Of a stretch of 64,000 nucleotides of DNA, positions 2,438 through 29,600 are shown piece after piece. The stretch lies in contig NZ_JXYP01000023.1 in NCBI RefSeq assembly GCF_000964005.1, forward strand, positions 1 through 64,000. Direction: 5' to 3'. A model generated the notes under the pieces. The model ran no database searches. It saw only the letters and a list, made by a program, of their open reading frames with translations, and had not been told where the DNA came from. The first letter of the stretch is position 1. Each line of letters starts with the position of its first letter. Made by a program: the position numbers and the translations under genes. Source of the DNA: Williamsia herbipolensis. Lineage in GTDB: Bacteria; Actinomycetota; Actinomycetes; Mycobacteriales; Mycobacteriaceae.

Positions 2438-3694
2438 GTGCGATCGCGTTCGCTTCTGGCTGTCATCACCACCGCCTGCCTGACCGCATCATTGGCGGCG
2501 GCGGTCGGCGTCACCGCGCCGGCCTCGGCGGCGCCGTGTGGCAACAAGGGAATCTTCGGCTCCAGCCTGGCCTTCGGGAGCAGTTTCGGCGGGCTGCTGG
2601 GCAGCCGGAGCGACCAGAAACCGTTGCCGCGCATCAGCACCGGGACCAGCCGCACCATCGGATGGGTCACCGGCGCGCTGTCGAACAATCGCACCGACAC
2701 CCGCTTCGGGATCTCCGGGACCGATCTCGGCATCTCGTGGGACAACGGCTCGGGTCAGACCCTCATGGCCTTCGGCGACACCTACGGCGATTGCAACGCG
2801 CCGGGTCAGCAGTGGCGCCACAACACGATCATGCGGACCACCGACACCGATCCCGACAACGGGCTCGTCATCGGCCCCGGTATCCCCGGTGACATCCGCT
2901 CGGGCGTATCGGTGTCGGCGGCCGCGCCGCGTACGGCGTCGGAGGCCGTCGGCTCGCCCGGCGTACCGGGGGTGGCCATCACCTCCATCCCCACCGCGGG
3001 TATCGCCATCAACGGCATCCAGTTCATGAACTACATGTCGGTGCGGTCGTGGGGCGCGGCCGGGCGCTGGGTGACCAACTACTCGGCGATCGCGGTGTCG
3101 CGGGACAACGGGCAGACGTGGACCACGGCGCAGAGCACCGTGCGCCCCAACCTCCCCGCGCCGTCGCCGGGGGTGCGCGTCGTCGACGACAGCAACGGCA
3201 AGTTCCAGCAGAGCGCCTACGTCGACGGGCGCGACGGCTTCATCTATCAGTACGGCACACCCAACGGCCGCTTCGGCGCCGCCTTCCTGGCGCGCTTCCG
3301 TCCCGCGGACATCCTCGACCTCGGCAAGTACGAGTACTTCACCGGCGATCGCAAGACCCCGTGGTCGCCCGACAAGACGAAGTCGAACTCGGTGGTGCGC
3401 GAGCCGGTCGGCGAGCTGTCGGTGGCGTGGAACGCCCGGATCGGACGCTTCGTGATGCTGACTGGCGACGAGAACCGCGGATCGATCACCCTGCGCACCT
3501 CCCGGACGCCGCAGGGCCCGTGGAGCGGCCCGACCACGCTGCTCACCTCGGGGCAGCTCAGCGGCGTGTATGCCCCGTACATCTACGCCGGGACGTCGCC
3601 GGACAGCCCGTACCTCTACTTCACGGCGTCGCGGTGGCAGGACTACAACGTCATGATGATGCGCACCGATCTCTCGCTCATCCGGGTGCCCTGA
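2438..3694 (+). CDS. Secreted DUF4185 protein, first of a tandem pair
   Basis: A 418-residue exported protein. A Sec-type signal peptide ends at about TAPASAAP (cleavage near residue 30). The body resembles DUF4185: a region with GTDLGISWDNG and FGDTYG, a central NYMSVRSWG segment and a C-terminal region with PYIYAG and FTASRW, suggesting a beta-propeller fold of the sialidase/glycosidase type. Catalytic residues cannot be assigned and the substrate is unknown. The GTG start at 2438 has a GGGGAGGG ribosome site about eight bases upstream. It is followed by a close paralogue in the same orientation. Confidence 0.85.
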   Translation: MRSRSLLAVITTACLTASLAAAVGVTAPASAAPCGNKGIFGSSLAFGSSFGGLLGSRSDQKPLPRISTGTSRTIGWVTGALSNNRTDTRFGISGTDLGISWDNGSGQTLMAFGDTYGDCNAPGQQWRHNTIMRTTDTDPDNGLVIGPGIPGDIRSGVSVSAAAPRTASEAVGSPGVPGVAITSIPTAGIAINGIQFMNYMSVRSWGAAGRWVTNYSAIAVSRDNGQTWTTAQSTVRPNLPAPSPGVRVVDDSNGKFQQSAYVDGRDGFIYQYGTPNGRFGAAFLARFRPADILDLGKYEYFTGDRKTPWSPDKTKSNSVVREPVGELSVAWNARIGRFVMLTGDENRGSITLRTSRTPQGPWSGPTTLLTSGQLSGVYAPYIYAGTSPDSPYLYFTASRWQDYNVMMMRTDLSLIRVP

Positions 3695-7212: not shown

Positions 7213-8921
7213 AGGTCACCGCCCGAGACGGTGCGGAACGACTCCATCACGACCACGGCGATCGCGGTGACGACGATCATGAGCACCGAGCACGCCATCG
7301 CGGTCGCCAGATTGTCGGCGCCGGGGCGGTTGAGTGCCGAGCCGATCAGCACCGGCAGCGTGGTGGTGCCCGGCCGGGCCAGGAATCCGGTCGCCCCGAA
7401 CTCGCCGACGGCGATGATGAAGGCGAACGCCCCCGACGCCGCCAGCGGACGCCAGATGAGCGGCAGGTCGACCGTGCGCCACACCCGCCACGGTCCGGCA
7501 CCCAGGGTCGCCGCCGCATGGCGCAGCCGAGGCGGGATCGCCGCGAGCGCGGGGGCGATCACACGGATCACCACCGGTACCGCGATGAGTGCCTGTACGG
7601 CCGGGATCAACCCCGGCCACGACGCGACACCGGCGGGCAGCGAGGCGAGCACGATGAGATAGCCGAAACCGACGGTCACCGCACTGACACCGAGCGGGAC
7701 CAGGGCGAGCGCCGAGCCCACCGTGGCCGCCGTCCCCCGGGCGCGTTGCAGCGCGATCGCCGCGAGCAGGCCGATCACCACCGACAGCACCATCGCCCAC
7801 AGTGCACTGACGACGCTGTACTGCAGTGTCTGCAGGGGTGTCTGACCGTTGACCGCGCGGGTCAGCGACCGATAACCCGACAGCGTCCACTCCCCTCCGG
7901 CGGTGGGACGCAGCGATCGGATCACCACCACCGACAGCGGTCCGACCAGGACGACCACCGCCCACACCGCGACGACCGCTTGCGACGCCCGGCCGCGGAC
8001 CCGCGCCGTGGCCTCGCGCGCGACGACCGCGACGGTCCGCGGCGTCACCCACCCGGAGATCGCGACGACGACGATCACCACGACGATCTGCAGCAGCGAC
8101 AGGGTCACCGCCGCGGGGAGGTCGAAGTAGCCGATCGCCTGGGTGTAGACGGCGGTCTCGATGGTCTGCCAGCGGCCGTTGCCGAGGATGAGGACCACGC
8201 CGAAACTGGTGGAGCAGAACAGGAACACCAGCGCCGACGCGGACAGGATTGGGACGATCAGACGCGGAAGCACCACGGTGGTGAAGGCGCGCCACGGGGT
8301 GGCCCCGAGGGTGCGGGCGGCCAGTTCGGCGCGAGGATCCTGCGTGCGCCACGCCGACCCGACCACGCGCACCACGACAGCGATGTTGAGGAAGGCGTGG
8401 GCGGCGAGGATCGAGGCGACGCTGCCGTCGAGGCCGAGACCCGACAGCGGCCCACCCGGGGACACGATGGCCCGAAACGCCATGCCCACCACCACCGTCG
8501 GCAGCACGAAGGGAATGGTCACCCCGACCATCAGCAAGGTCGAGGTGCGCGCGCTGCAGGTGGCGACCAACCAGATGATCGGCGCCGCGACCACGAGGGT
8601 CACCAGCGTCGAGCCCGCGGCCTGGGCGAGGGTGAACCCGAGCAGACCCCAGGCGTCGGTGCGACGGGCCAGGTCGAGCAGACCCTCACCGTCGGACACC
8701 CCGACCGCGCGGACGACCAACGCTCCGACCGGCCACACGAAGAAGACGCCGATGAAGGCCAGGGGGATCACGGTCAGGACCGCGACGACGCGGCGGTGGC
8801 CGGTGTCGCCGGTCTCGCCGCGGCGGTGGCCGGTGTCGCCGGTCTCGCCGCGGCGGTGGCCGGTGTCGCCGGTCTCGCCGCGGCGGCGCCGGACCGGTCG
8901 CAGCCGTCCCGCGCCGGTCAC
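7209..8921 (-). CDS. ABC importer permease, duplicated (ThiP/FbpB type)
   Basis: A 570-residue membrane protein made of two tandem permease halves, each with the EAA-type loop (LGATPWRAF near residue 215 and LGAGPWRVW near 490), and about twelve membrane helices. This fused architecture is typical of thiamine and ferric-iron importers. The cytoplasmic N-terminus contains three exact copies of GETGDTGHRR, from a perfect 30-bp DNA triplication. GTG at 8921 is used as start, 22 bases after the binding-protein stop; a weak ribosome site leaves the exact start uncertain. Transcribed with the binding-protein and ATPase genes. Confidence 0.88.
   Translation of the reverse strand: MTGAGRLRPVRRRRGETGDTGHRRGETGDTGHRRGETGDTGHRRVVAVLTVIPLAFIGVFFVWPVGALVVRAVGVSDGEGLLDLARRTDAWGLLGFTLAQAAGSTLVTLVVAAPIIWLVATCSARTSTLLMVGVTIPFVLPTVVVGMAFRAIVSPGGPLSGLGLDGSVASILAAHAFLNIAVVVRVVGSAWRTQDPRAELAARTLGATPWRAFTTVVLPRLIVPILSASALVFLFCSTSFGVVLILGNGRWQTIETAVYTQAIGYFDLPAAVTLSLLQIVVVIVVVAISGWVTPRTVAVVAREATARVRGRASQAVVAVWAVVVLVGPLSVVVIRSLRPTAGGEWTLSGYRSLTRAVNGQTPLQTLQYSVVSALWAMVLSVVIGLLAAIALQRARGTAATVGSALALVPLGVSAVTVGFGYLIVLASLPAGVASWPGLIPAVQALIAVPVVIRVIAPALAAIPPRLRHAAATLGAGPWRVWRTVDLPLIWRPLAASGAFAFIIAVGEFGATGFLARPGTTTLPVLIGSALNRPGADNLATAMACSVLMIVVTAIAVVVMESFRTVSGGDL
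8791..8880. repeat. Perfect 30-bp tandem triplication inside permease gene
   Basis: Three identical units (8791-8820, 8821-8850, 8851-8880), each a multiple of three bases, encode GETGDTGHRR three times in the permease N-terminus. Complete identity indicates recent slippage or active copy-number change. Confidence 0.97.
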
Positions 8922-27653: not shown

Positions 27654-28226
27654 ATGCCCGATCCGACCACTCGCGGCGACACCGCCCGCAACGCCGAGCG
27701 CACACGCGCCGCACTCATGTCGGCGGCTCGGCGTCGATTCGCCTCCGAGGGATTCGCCGCGACGACCGTGCGGGCGGTCGCGGGCGACGCCGGCGTGGAT
27801 CCCGCGCTTGTGATGCGCTACTTCGGCAGCAAGCGCGGTCTCTACGAGGCGGCGACGTCGGTCGACCTCCACCTGCCCGACTTCACCGAGGTCCACCGGC
27901 GCCGCCTCGGCGCGGTGATCGTCGAGACGTTCCTGGACCGCTGGGAGGGCCCGCACGGCGAGTCCCTGCAACTCCTGCTGGCGTCAGCGGCCACGGAACC
28001 GGCTGCGGCCGAACAGATGCAGACCATCTTCGCCGCGCAGGTGCGGCCGGCTGTCGACGCGGCGGGCGCCGACAGCGACGTATCGGTCGAGGTGATCGCC
28101 TCGACCCTCATCGGTATGGCGATGATGCGCTATGTGCTGCGCGTCCCCAGCATCGTCGACCTCACTCCGGCACAGGTGGTGTCGATGTACGGTCCGGCAC
28201 TGCAACGCCTGCTGGCCCGGCGCTGA
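27654..28226 (+). CDS. TetR-family transcriptional repressor
   Basis: A 190-residue regulator. The N-terminal helix-turn-helix (about residues 15-62) reads ALMSAARRRFASEGFAATTVRAVAGDAGVDPALVMRYFGSK in segments typical of TetR, and the rest is an all-helical ligand/dimer domain of the TetR_C_17-like kind. It is divergent from the FAD monooxygenase. The two GTCAAC-N4-GTTGAC palindromes between them are the obvious targets. The inducer is presumably the monooxygenase substrate or a relative (inference). Confidence 0.9.
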   Translation: MPDPTTRGDTARNAERTRAALMSAARRRFASEGFAATTVRAVAGDAGVDPALVMRYFGSKRGLYEAATSVDLHLPDFTEVHRRRLGAVIVETFLDRWEGPHGESLQLLLASAATEPAAAEQMQTIFAAQVRPAVDAAGADSDVSVEVIASTLIGMAMMRYVLRVPSIVDLTPAQVVSMYGPALQRLLARR

Positions 28227-28227
28227 T

Positions 28228-28773
28228 TCAGAGCTGGGGACCCTTGGCGCGAAGGGTGTCCACGGAGTCCATCGCCTCCCGCAGTTCGGCGAGCCAGGCC
28301 TCGGTGTGCTCACCGACGAGCTTCACCGACCACACCACCGCGTCGGCACGCGACCGCGCCACGCCGGCATCGACGAGGGTGTCGAGGACCTGCCGCTCGG
28401 ACTGACGCAACCGCGTCATCACCGGAACGGCCAGATGGGTGAACAGGATTCGCTGCTCGCCGACCCGCACGCCCCACGACACCTTCCGGGCATACCGGGC
28501 CTGAGCTTCGTCGGCGATGGTCATCCGCTGCTCACGGGTGTCCTCGCGGAACCGGGAGGCACGCCCTTCTGCGACCGCGCTGCCCCCGTCACCGCTCGGC
28601 GCCGTCAGCGTGCCGACGACGGTGATCTCGTCACGATCGACGACGACCTCGGGCGCGCCGTCGAACCATTCGTCGGGCAGACGCCCGACGAACCATGCCG
28701 ATGCGTCGCTCGCATCGGGCAGTTCGGCCTGTTGCCATCCGCCACGACGACCGCTGCGATTGTGTTCCTTCAT
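28228..28773 (-). CDS. Conserved actinobacterial hypothetical protein
   Basis: A 181-residue soluble protein. The middle (EVVVDRDEITVVGTL and AEGRASRFREDTREQRM) looks like a beta-rich module. The C-terminal part (ERQVLDTLVDAGVARSRADAVVWSVKLVG) resembles a short DNA-binding helix pair of the ribbon-helix-helix kind, which is suggestive only. ATG 28773 has GGAG seven bases upstream; the frame is open to 28812 without support. Its stop is one base from the tetR stop (convergent). Upstream are two tandem TGATTACA octamers, then the repeat arrays. Confidence 0.7.
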   Translation of the reverse strand: MKEHNRSGRRGGWQQAELPDASDASAWFVGRLPDEWFDGAPEVVVDRDEITVVGTLTAPSGDGGSAVAEGRASRFREDTREQRMTIADEAQARYARKVSWGVRVGEQRILFTHLAVPVMTRLRQSERQVLDTLVDAGVARSRADAVVWSVKLVGEHTEAWLAELREAMDSVDTLRAKGPQL

Positions 28774-28793
28774 GTCTCCACTCCTTCGTTGAG

Positions 28794-28809
28794 TGATTAC
28801 ATGATTACA
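28794..28809. promoter_or_regulatory. Tandem TGATTACA octamers upstream of hypothetical gene
   Basis: Two adjacent identical octamers, A+T-rich in a GC-rich genome, 21 bases upstream of ATG 28773. They may be an operator or part of the promoter. Confidence 0.45.
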
Positions 28810-28852
28810 CACTTACATGTCACCTCGTCGCGGTTTCGCTCACAGCAGACCC

Positions 28853-28932
28853 CAGTTGGGCACGTAACGACCGCAGTTGGGCACGTAACGACCACAGCTG
28901 GGCACGTAACGACCACAGCTGGGCACGAGATC
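28853..28932 (+). repeat. 21-bp repeat array, left arm (4 units)
   Basis: Units begin at 28853, 28874, 28895 and 28916. The core is CAGTTGGGCACGTAA, then a six-base linker (CGACCG or CGACCA). Units 1 and 2 carry the core intact; unit 3 has one change (CAGCTGGG); unit 4, nearest the centre, decays after CACG. 21 bp is two helical turns, so all cores face the same side of DNA. Confidence 0.92.
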
Positions 28933-28967
28933 ACCGAGGCAGCCGATCCACCGGGACCGACGTGCCG

Positions 28968-29070
28968 TCGGGTGTCCAACCGGGGCATTGACGTGCCCAA
29001 CCGGCGGGTTCAGGTGCCCAAGTGGCGGGGTTACGTGCCCAACTGGCGGGTTTACGTGCCCAATCGAGGG
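28968..29070 (-). repeat. 21-bp repeat array, right arm (5 units, inverted)
   Basis: The same core in reverse orientation: units start near 28968 (degenerate), 28989, 29010, 29031 and 29052. GTTACGTGCCCAAC at 29030-29043 is the exact complement of GTTGGGCACGTAAC at 28856-28869. As in the left arm, the inner units are the most degenerate. About 35 bases separate the arms. Confidence 0.9.
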
Positions 29071-29110
29071 CCGGGACCGCACGTGAACGGTCATGTCGGG
29101 CGCGGCCGAA

Positions 29111-29116
29111 TACAGT
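29111..29116 (+). promoter_or_regulatory. -10 element TACAGT, leaderless-type
   Basis: TACAGT is seven bases before ATG 29124; its upstream region borders the right repeat arm. Confidence 0.6.
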
Positions 29117-29123
29117 CGGCGCC

Positions 29124-29600
29124 ATGCCCACTCCCGATTTCATCCTCGATCTCCGTGAACGGATCGGTCATGCACCCCTGTGGTTGTCCGGGGTGACCGC
29201 GGTCGTCCTCCGAGACGGGCACGTCCTGCTGGTCAAGCGCAGCGACAACGGGGCCTGGACCCCGGTCACCGGCATCATCGACCCCGGCGAGGAACCGGCC
29301 GTCGCGGCGGTGCGCGAGGTGCTCGAGGAGGCCGGGTGCGTGGTGGAACCCGAGCGGTTGGCCTCGACGCACGTGACGAAGCCGGTGACCTATCCCAACG
29401 GCGACGTGTCGCAGTACCTCGATCTGACGTTCCGGATGCGGTGGGTGTCGGGCGAACCGACGGTCAGCGACGACGAGAACACCGACTGCGGGTGGTTCCC
29501 GCTCGACGATCTACCGACCATGTCCGACGAGATGACCTACCGGCTCGATGCCGCCGTCGCCGACCGTCCCGACGCGGTGTTCCGCACCGGGCCGGCCTGA
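29124..29600 (+). CDS. NUDIX hydrolase
   Basis: A 158-residue NUDIX enzyme with the full box at residues 50-72 (G50, E56, R64-E65, E68-E69, G71). N-terminal LWLSGVTAVVLRDGHVLLVKRSDNGAW and the later VTYPNGDVSQYLDLTFRM resemble the ADP-ribose/nucleotide-sugar type common in actinobacteria. The substrate is not determinable. It converges with the mycolyltransferase-like gene, leaving only ten bases between stops. Confidence 0.88.
   Translation: MPTPDFILDLRERIGHAPLWLSGVTAVVLRDGHVLLVKRSDNGAWTPVTGIIDPGEEPAVAAVREVLEEAGCVVEPERLASTHVTKPVTYPNGDVSQYLDLTFRMRWVSGEPTVSDDENTDCGWFPLDDLPTMSDEMTYRLDAAVADRPDAVFRTGPA

Follow-up and report, generated by a model that had tools for sequence, protein, structure and literature searches.

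What could two arrays of one 21-bp repeat, facing each other in a single intergenic region, be doing in the genome of Williamsia herbipolensis? The stretch of DNA in which they were noticed, called the window from here on, covers positions 1 to 64,000 of contig NZ_JXYP01000023.1 (64,000 nucleotides). The preliminary description of this stretch had recognised four forward and five reverse units with a period of 21, and this layout is confirmed here (Table 1). The pair is one gene-less member of a dispersed repeat family, and to understand it one has to look at the other members, and at the nuclease gene that some of them enclose.

Table 1. The opposed arrays of the W. herbipolensis window and their surroundings.
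Feature	Coordinates	Strand	Description
Flanking hypothetical gene	28228..28773	-	no Pfam match
Forward arm	28848..28927	+	four 21-bp units, cores TTGGGCACGT at 28856, 28877, 28898, 28919
Centre between arms	28928..28969	.	without recognisable unit
Reverse arm	28970..29066	-	five 21-bp units, cores at 28970, 28991, 29012, 29033, 29054
Probable remnant of older repeat type	29090..29107	+	assigned by position and by eye to the type that occupies this site in G001 and G004
Flanking NUDIX gene	29124..29600	+	flanks reverse arm

The spacing of the cores is exactly 21 throughout both arms. Counted from left to right, mismatches to TTGGGCACGT number 0, 0, 1 and 2 in the forward arm and 3, 0, 1, 0 and 0 in the reverse arm, the 3 belonging to its innermost core; the intact units are those on the left of the one and on the right of the other, which are the outer ones in both cases. 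TRF reports 3.8 copies with 94% matches at 28848-28927 and 4.4 copies with 80% at 28972-29063. The 10-base core, with at most one mismatch, has 11 matches in the window (4 of them outside the arrays) against 4.0 expected, a number that none of 100 shuffles reaches. The consensus unit in the W. herbipolensis genome is TTGGGCACGTAACGACCGCAG. Of the two sequences that had been given exact positions earlier, GTTACGTGCCCAAC does stand at 29030, while GTTGGGCACGTAAC begins at 28855 and not at 28856. The rejection of a CRISPR array is upheld: such an array has identical repeats and unique spacers, whereas here the entire 21-bp unit recurs, linker included. The claim that linkers are as conserved as cores fails genome-wide, as linker positions range from 0.1 to 2.0 bits in four close species, set against a core value that is inflated because the units were selected by core; the unit cores served to find the arrays, and core conservation is to that extent circular. 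Rfam, at its gathering threshold, detects only a tRNA as known RNA in the window. At 8789-8886 the window also contains a perfect 30-bp tandem repeat of 3.3 copies, different in kind from the 21-bp arrays.

Two exact cores placed 21 apart occur 33 times in the 4.7-Mb genome, against 0 for the backward pattern; when up to 3 mismatches are allowed there are at least 99, against 1 for the backward control. Arrays are found at the window site and at no fewer than 21 other places (12 as pairs, 9 as single arrays), and with so wide a distribution the unit is not specific to the pair of flanking hypothetical and NUDIX genes. The arrays considered here are a sample from the matches listed rather than a full enumeration. 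Exact two-unit matches are present in 4 of the 61 genomes examined, all belonging to Williamsia, and a three-unit pattern (TTGGGCR every 21 bases, with at most one mismatch) is present in all 8 Williamsia genomes, with 18 to 98 occurrences among the matches listed; the linkers behind TTGGGCA vary among species groups of the genus, as in CGTAACGACCGCAG versus CCCGGAACCGTTCG. Among 393 other genomes of the family, at least 16 match this pattern, mostly once each, and single matches in other genera were discarded as being at the level of the backward control, which about 20 non-Williamsia genomes match. Among 16 non-Williamsia loci inspected, intergenic arrays of similar appearance stand at those of G280, G423, G305, G144 and G017 (handles beginning with G denote genomes, those beginning with L loci). 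Of 52 matching stretches, 22 came from outside Williamsia (19 with cyanobacterial titles) and were judged coding or chance: the 19 cyanobacterial stretches and one from Chloroflexi sit in opposite-strand open frames of 170 to 329 codons, and those of Nocardioides and Amycolatopsis in longer open frames. L057 was likewise set aside as a chance match in coding sequence. The preliminary description would have been refuted by a repeat that is absent or randomly placed in close relatives; instead, relatives carry it at conserved sites.

Outside the window, on another contig of W. herbipolensis (contig 23), a gene stands between two such arms (253598-254488), and the corresponding site in G001, G004 and G007 holds the same kind of gene in the same arrangement. 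Its product of about 300 amino acids matches AbiEi in its N-terminal part and REase_MTES_1575/DUF559 (Vsr-like) in its C-terminal part. In G002, G005 and G006, an array-flanked relative occupies a different site. The AbiEi models of PADLOC match the N-terminus of three proteins with E-values of 2e-12, 4e-11 and 1e-14 and that of the G280 protein with 7e-4; the score for Pfam AbiEi_1 is below the cut-off in the proteins tested. For the nuclease part, PF18741 gives 26-37 bits in all six nucleases tested, against a cut-off of 38.2, and PF04480 is above its cut-off in L129 and L115 (26.2 vs 20.6), below it in L048, L148 and L219, and unlisted for L228. Residues E185, E189, D222 and D235 (L246 numbering) are found in 49 of 49 members of the array-bearing clade described below, and R252 in 48 of 49, all being kept outside the clade too; from the type of domain, these five presumably make up the catalytic nuclease core. 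The C-terminal domain is common to REase_MTES_1575/DUF559 proteins at large, but His240 and Tyr225, invariant in the 49 clade members, are replaced by Trp in 26 and 24, respectively, of 26 outside homologs, and the outside sequences shown have a His one residue earlier than His240. MTES_1575_REase has been described as a restriction-endonuclease fold of the Vsr type, found in a conflict-type protein (PMC3710099).

In ten nuclease pairs, dN/dS lies between 0.06 and 0.19. An AlphaFold prediction from a two-row alignment (mean pLDDT 36) was too poor to use, and the best E-value for a relative among solved structures was 0.097. In viral contigs, 389 stretches matched a pattern for relatives of the protein and none was confirmed; the array pattern was not found in them. 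Among plasmids, 6 records matched, at identities of 24-37%. The proteins tested contain no transposase domain, HUH family included. Other genes also lie between arms (DUF308, flavin reductase, YqeY-like, amine oxidase, alcohol dehydrogenase, TetR-like), and an element with general cargo was considered and rejected: the enclosed genes are mixed, and they are taken as ordinary neighbours because only the nuclease is met at several sites together with arrays of its own.

The 8 Williamsia genomes contain at least 19 close copies of the nuclease (E up to 1e-45), with 1 to 3 in each among the matches listed, and of the 19 listed, all but L253, L318 and L319 (16 of 19) are accompanied by a period-21 array on one side or both. 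For 90 homologs of many genera, the 350 bp to the left and the 350 bp to the right were scored, counting outward from where the profile match ends rather than from where the gene does, and with N bases excluded; 40 homolog loci were added by hand-picking from lists of matches. For the 46 best-scoring homologs, period-21 runs are found in 71 of 92 flanks, any other period from 10 to 40 giving 0 to 9, and 39 of the 46 are positive on at least one side and 32 on both. The 44 weaker homologs give 6 positives, all of genus g9 (L276 is entered as negative in the counts for the 90, though period-21 runs stand on both of its sides), and 46 of 2000 random pieces of this length from the window, which contains arrays itself, are positive. 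In a tree of 88 homologs, obtained by a quick method, with several long outer branches and leaving out L275 and L276, flanking period-21 arrays accompany 45 of the 49 members of one clade (SH-aLRT 98) and 0 of the 39 homologs outside it; the array label changes 4 times, against 29.8 when shuffled. This clade spans four genera (g1, g9 and g11 in the tree, plus g17), and array-less homologs are common in these genomes. The association of the arrays with one nuclease clade is strong.

Could the nuclease genes nevertheless be passengers that ended up in ordinary minisatellites, these having spread through slippage and recombination? Copy number changes readily in tandem repeats, and the mixed genes between arms would also agree with this view. 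A single exact period, an inverted layout and a restriction to one clade over several genera are unexpected of passengers, which makes this reading very improbable. Two clade members that stand without flanking arrays are L318 (G001 C1:1642854-1643672) and L319 (G007 C2:63974-64786), a pair with a dN/dS of 0.07; since they are under purifying selection without arrays, the protein seems to have some use apart from them. In G144, of another genus (L186, L240-L243), there are intergenic arrays and no clade nuclease was found (best 107 bits).

The placement of the arrays was established, with a home-made gene caller, for the 152 arrays of at least three units at the loci retrieved from the 8 Williamsia genomes. 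Convergent genes flank 100 of them and divergent genes 5, 39 have codirectional neighbours (33 sense, 6 antisense), and 8 are unplaced or inside a called gene; the window, with its 61 gene pairs (36 codirectional, 13 divergent and 12 convergent), serves as the comparison. Neighbouring arrays on opposite strands follow the order plus then minus in 46 of 47 cases and minus then plus in 1, and many arrays are single. Among the few loci between divergent genes are that of the window and its counterpart in G007. A period of 21 is divisible by 3, so that open frames run through the arrays (at the window, one of 84 amino acids at 28840-29094 on the minus strand), and a translated heptapeptide repeat had been named earlier as a possible outcome. 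That the arrays encode such a protein is hardly credible: 4 of the 152 lie inside called genes, and their distance behind stop codons varies, and hence the frame.

The abundance of convergent neighbours suggests another possibility, a host device for gene ends, in which the AbiEi/Vsr-like protein would be a resident DNA-binding factor with a secondary nuclease domain, and the arrays would be roadblocks or terminators. The sense orientation of most codirectional arrays agrees with it, and of 86 arrays that have an upstream sense gene in four close species, 72 start within 30 nt of its stop codon. Conserved array sites, purifying selection on the array-bearing proteins and the stability of the folded array strand (as RNA, -119.6 kcal/mol at the window, z -5.9) are also as expected. 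This folding bears on the interrupted RNA stem that had been proposed for the window: a paired stem can form, but linkers match at 0.676 between the arms of one locus (37 pairs) and at 0.685 across loci of the same species, and as arms are no better matched within a locus than between loci, selection for arm-arm pairing is not seen. The gene-end device suffers from the same lack of co-matched arms, and at L115, L129, L148, L137 and L150 a terminator-like hairpin, recognised by eye, already lies between the stop codon and the array; on both grounds a hairpin or terminator was rejected as the whole story. The device is also at odds with the divergent genes around the window site and its G007 counterpart, would serve some tens of gene ends only, and leaves unexplained why the nuclease gene sits between two arrays. 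It is an unlikely explanation, although one to be kept in mind.

How the arrays change is best seen along their length. The earlier statement that outer units are intact and inner ones degenerate, true at the window, is general across 138 arrays of 6 species: from the outermost unit inward, similarity to the species consensus is 0.862, 0.834, 0.736 and 0.689, and with the innermost unit left out, the outermost is the better one in 84 arrays and the worse in 28 (P 2e-7). At several loci, the inner units are of an older type and the outer ones of the resident type. The proposal of growth or repair from the outside agrees well with this gradient and with the position of newer unit types outside older ones. 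At L149 (G004, ~3560-3670), b-type inner units stand behind a-type units, so that one tract contains the units of two nuclease systems.

The history of the window site can be followed across species. It holds an a-type pair in G000 and G007, three units of an older type, GTCGAGTGGGCGGATGCGGAC, in G001 and G004, and neither arrays nor the hypothetical gene in G002, G005 and G006. The first TGGGC lies exactly 6 nt from the common left flank in G000, G001, G004 and G007, and from this identical offset it follows that the new type has kept the older one's register. No target-site duplication was seen at this site. As for the genes around it (27654-29600 in the window), the hypothetical gene stands between the TetR and NUDIX genes in the four genomes that have it, and in the three others TetR and NUDIX are adjacent. 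Elsewhere, next to the gene of a long protein (1151 aa aligned), G002, G005 and G006 have a c-nuclease element at an intergenic site where G000, G001 and G004 have arrays only; in G005 and G006, the nucleases found at the a-nuclease site go with other units. At the site of L246, L247, L250 and L251, with L261, L262 and L253, different nuclease subtypes are found by species between the same two flanking genes; in the four close species this site has two alleles about 60% identical, the flanking genes being 85-99% identical. Linkers agree among the loci of one genome at 0.733 in G000, 0.735 in G004 (35 comparisons), 0.658 in G001 and 0.630 in G007, and between species at 0.668 for orthologous and 0.634 for non-orthologous loci. 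Two genomes, G000 and G004, thus show clear internal likeness and G007 shows none, with some memory of descent remaining. As most array sites are common to several species, movement is slow at best.

The units are specific to nuclease subtypes. At 36 of 38 loci, the arrays to the left and right of a nuclease gene repeat one unit in opposite orientations, the other 2 being ties, with a mean identity of 0.82 when compared inverted and 0.50 when compared directly. Unit similarity rises with protein identity, from about 0.51 below 50% to 0.84 above 90% (shuffled units 0.47), and the Mantel rho of 0.27 is equalled in none of 2000 permutations; taken alone, this trend could be explained by common descent. 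The b-type units are arrayed in G001, G004 and G007 (29, 26 and 51 matches), G000 having 1 match and the other four genomes none, and the c-type units in G002, G005 and G006 (31, 32 and 12), with 0 in the other five. The genomes with dispersed b or c units are those that have an array-flanked b or c nuclease, a co-occurrence that follows species clades and therefore represents few independent events. The nucleases L318 and L319 of G001 and G007 are c-like, and these two genomes, where the gene has no flanking arrays, have no dispersed c arrays either. Among four genomes, it is only in G007 that the dispersed a-type units fit best the nuclease-linked unit of their own genome: those of G004 score 0.604 with their own against 0.607 with that of G001 and 0.619 with that of G007, those of G000 0.711 with their own against 0.741 with a neighbour's, and those of G001 0.634 against 0.643.

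Such pairing of protein and repeat recalls the AbiE type IV toxin-antitoxin system, whose antitoxin AbiEi is what the N-terminal part resembles. A defence-type nuclease might then repress itself via the adjoining arrays, as AbiEi does via its operator, with the dispersed arrays soaking up the protein and shielding the cell. The matching AbiEi models come from a defence library (PADLOC), conflict proteins are among those with this type of nuclease domain (PMC3710099), and AbiEi-type proteins bind repeats in their own promoters, 23-bp inverted repeats being bound by AbiEi and Rv2827c (PMC7319586). The differences are that the C-terminus here is nuclease-like and that 21-bp tandem arrays are found on both sides of the gene, behind it as well as in front, and also dispersed. 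An operator fails to explain tens of dispersed gene-end pairs, older units inside newer ones or replacement in register, and self-regulation of this kind appears rather unlikely.

Two kinds of mobile DNA also offer comparisons in layout. MITE-type elements are miniature gene-less copies, with inverted ends, of gene-bearing transposons; here too a gene-bearing element has gene-less copies with inverted ends, but the ends consist of tandem arrays whose copy number varies, and the window site, with its replacement in register, has no visible target-site duplication. Homing endonuclease genes encode a nuclease that cuts the empty site, into which the gene is then copied. The nuclease gene here likewise lies within what is probably its own recognition sequence, and sites exist with and without it, but the site is a repeat array at tens of loci and not one conserved gene.

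REP and REPIN sequences are short intergenic repeats, mostly inverted doublets, which form several sequence groups per genome, each group being tied to a specific enzyme gene and found near that gene too (PMC3116915, PMC8266576). The present family resembles REP/REPIN/BIME and RAYT (TnpA-REP) in its dispersed inverted intergenic repeats and in its several groups, each with a cognate enzyme gene. It differs in its unit, a 21-bp direct repeat in tandem in place of a GTAG-headed palindrome (the unit logos of 10 genomes have no GTAG head), in its arms, which are not co-matched and decay from outside in, and in its enzyme, AbiEi-like plus Vsr-like nuclease where RAYT is a Y1 HUH (IS200-like) transposase. 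The element belongs to neither REPIN/RAYT nor homing genes, the REP head and the Y1 enzyme being absent and homing being something that we infer here. By analogy, the system most likely acts like REPIN/RAYT or a homing gene while being built from unrelated parts.

The account that we consider probable, if narrowly so, is that of a repeat system driven by the nuclease through binding, cutting, copying by repair, conversion from outside in, and copying or loss of the gene. A complete element would consist of a forward array, the nuclease gene and a reverse array, and the window pair would be a gene-less copy of it. The AbiEi-like N-terminal part, probably DNA-binding, would bind the 21-bp unit; since relatives of AbiEi bind 23-bp inverted repeats (PMC7319586), such binding is plausible by analogy. 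A unit of 21 bp would be two helical turns long, so that tandem copies would lie on one face of the DNA; the preliminary description had seen in this a phased repeat for protein binding, of which the repeated, phased unit is confirmed and the bound protein suggested. The Vsr-like domain would nick or cut the outermost units, beside the unique flanking DNA, and repair would copy sequence from another array of the same genome, adding or replacing units from the outside and homogenising the arrays within a genome. Arrays of an old type would in this way be converted in register to the resident type. Now and then the nuclease gene would be copied into an array site, or lost from one, leaving gene-less pairs like that of the window, and copies between convergent genes would survive best. 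Mobility and a selfish benefit to the element are what these steps, read from sequence comparison, would add up to.

It is a serious possibility, though one that we hold just short of probable, that this constitutes a new class of selfish bacterial DNA, in which a nuclease makes, spreads and homogenises its own 21-bp arrays by cutting at the outermost units and repair, and in which several systems with private repeats share a chromosome, later ones overwriting earlier ones in register. In the open-access literature, no link between DUF559/MTES_1575 or AbiEi-like proteins and such arrays was found, nor any description of 21-bp intergenic arrays in Williamsia or Gordonia.

How short intergenic repeats that are all alike arise in bacteria, and how they are kept so, is an old question, to which RAYT/REPIN is the best-worked answer. 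The family described here would bring to it an unrelated enzyme family with the same logic and several coexisting pairs of enzyme and repeat. With a repeat sequence that has changed repeatedly while the 21-bp period was kept, it may provide a natural series for reading how protein recognises unit, as well as a direct test case for the spread of repeats via nuclease-triggered repair. DUF559-type proteins are common but have received little study, and one branch of them would also gain a candidate function.
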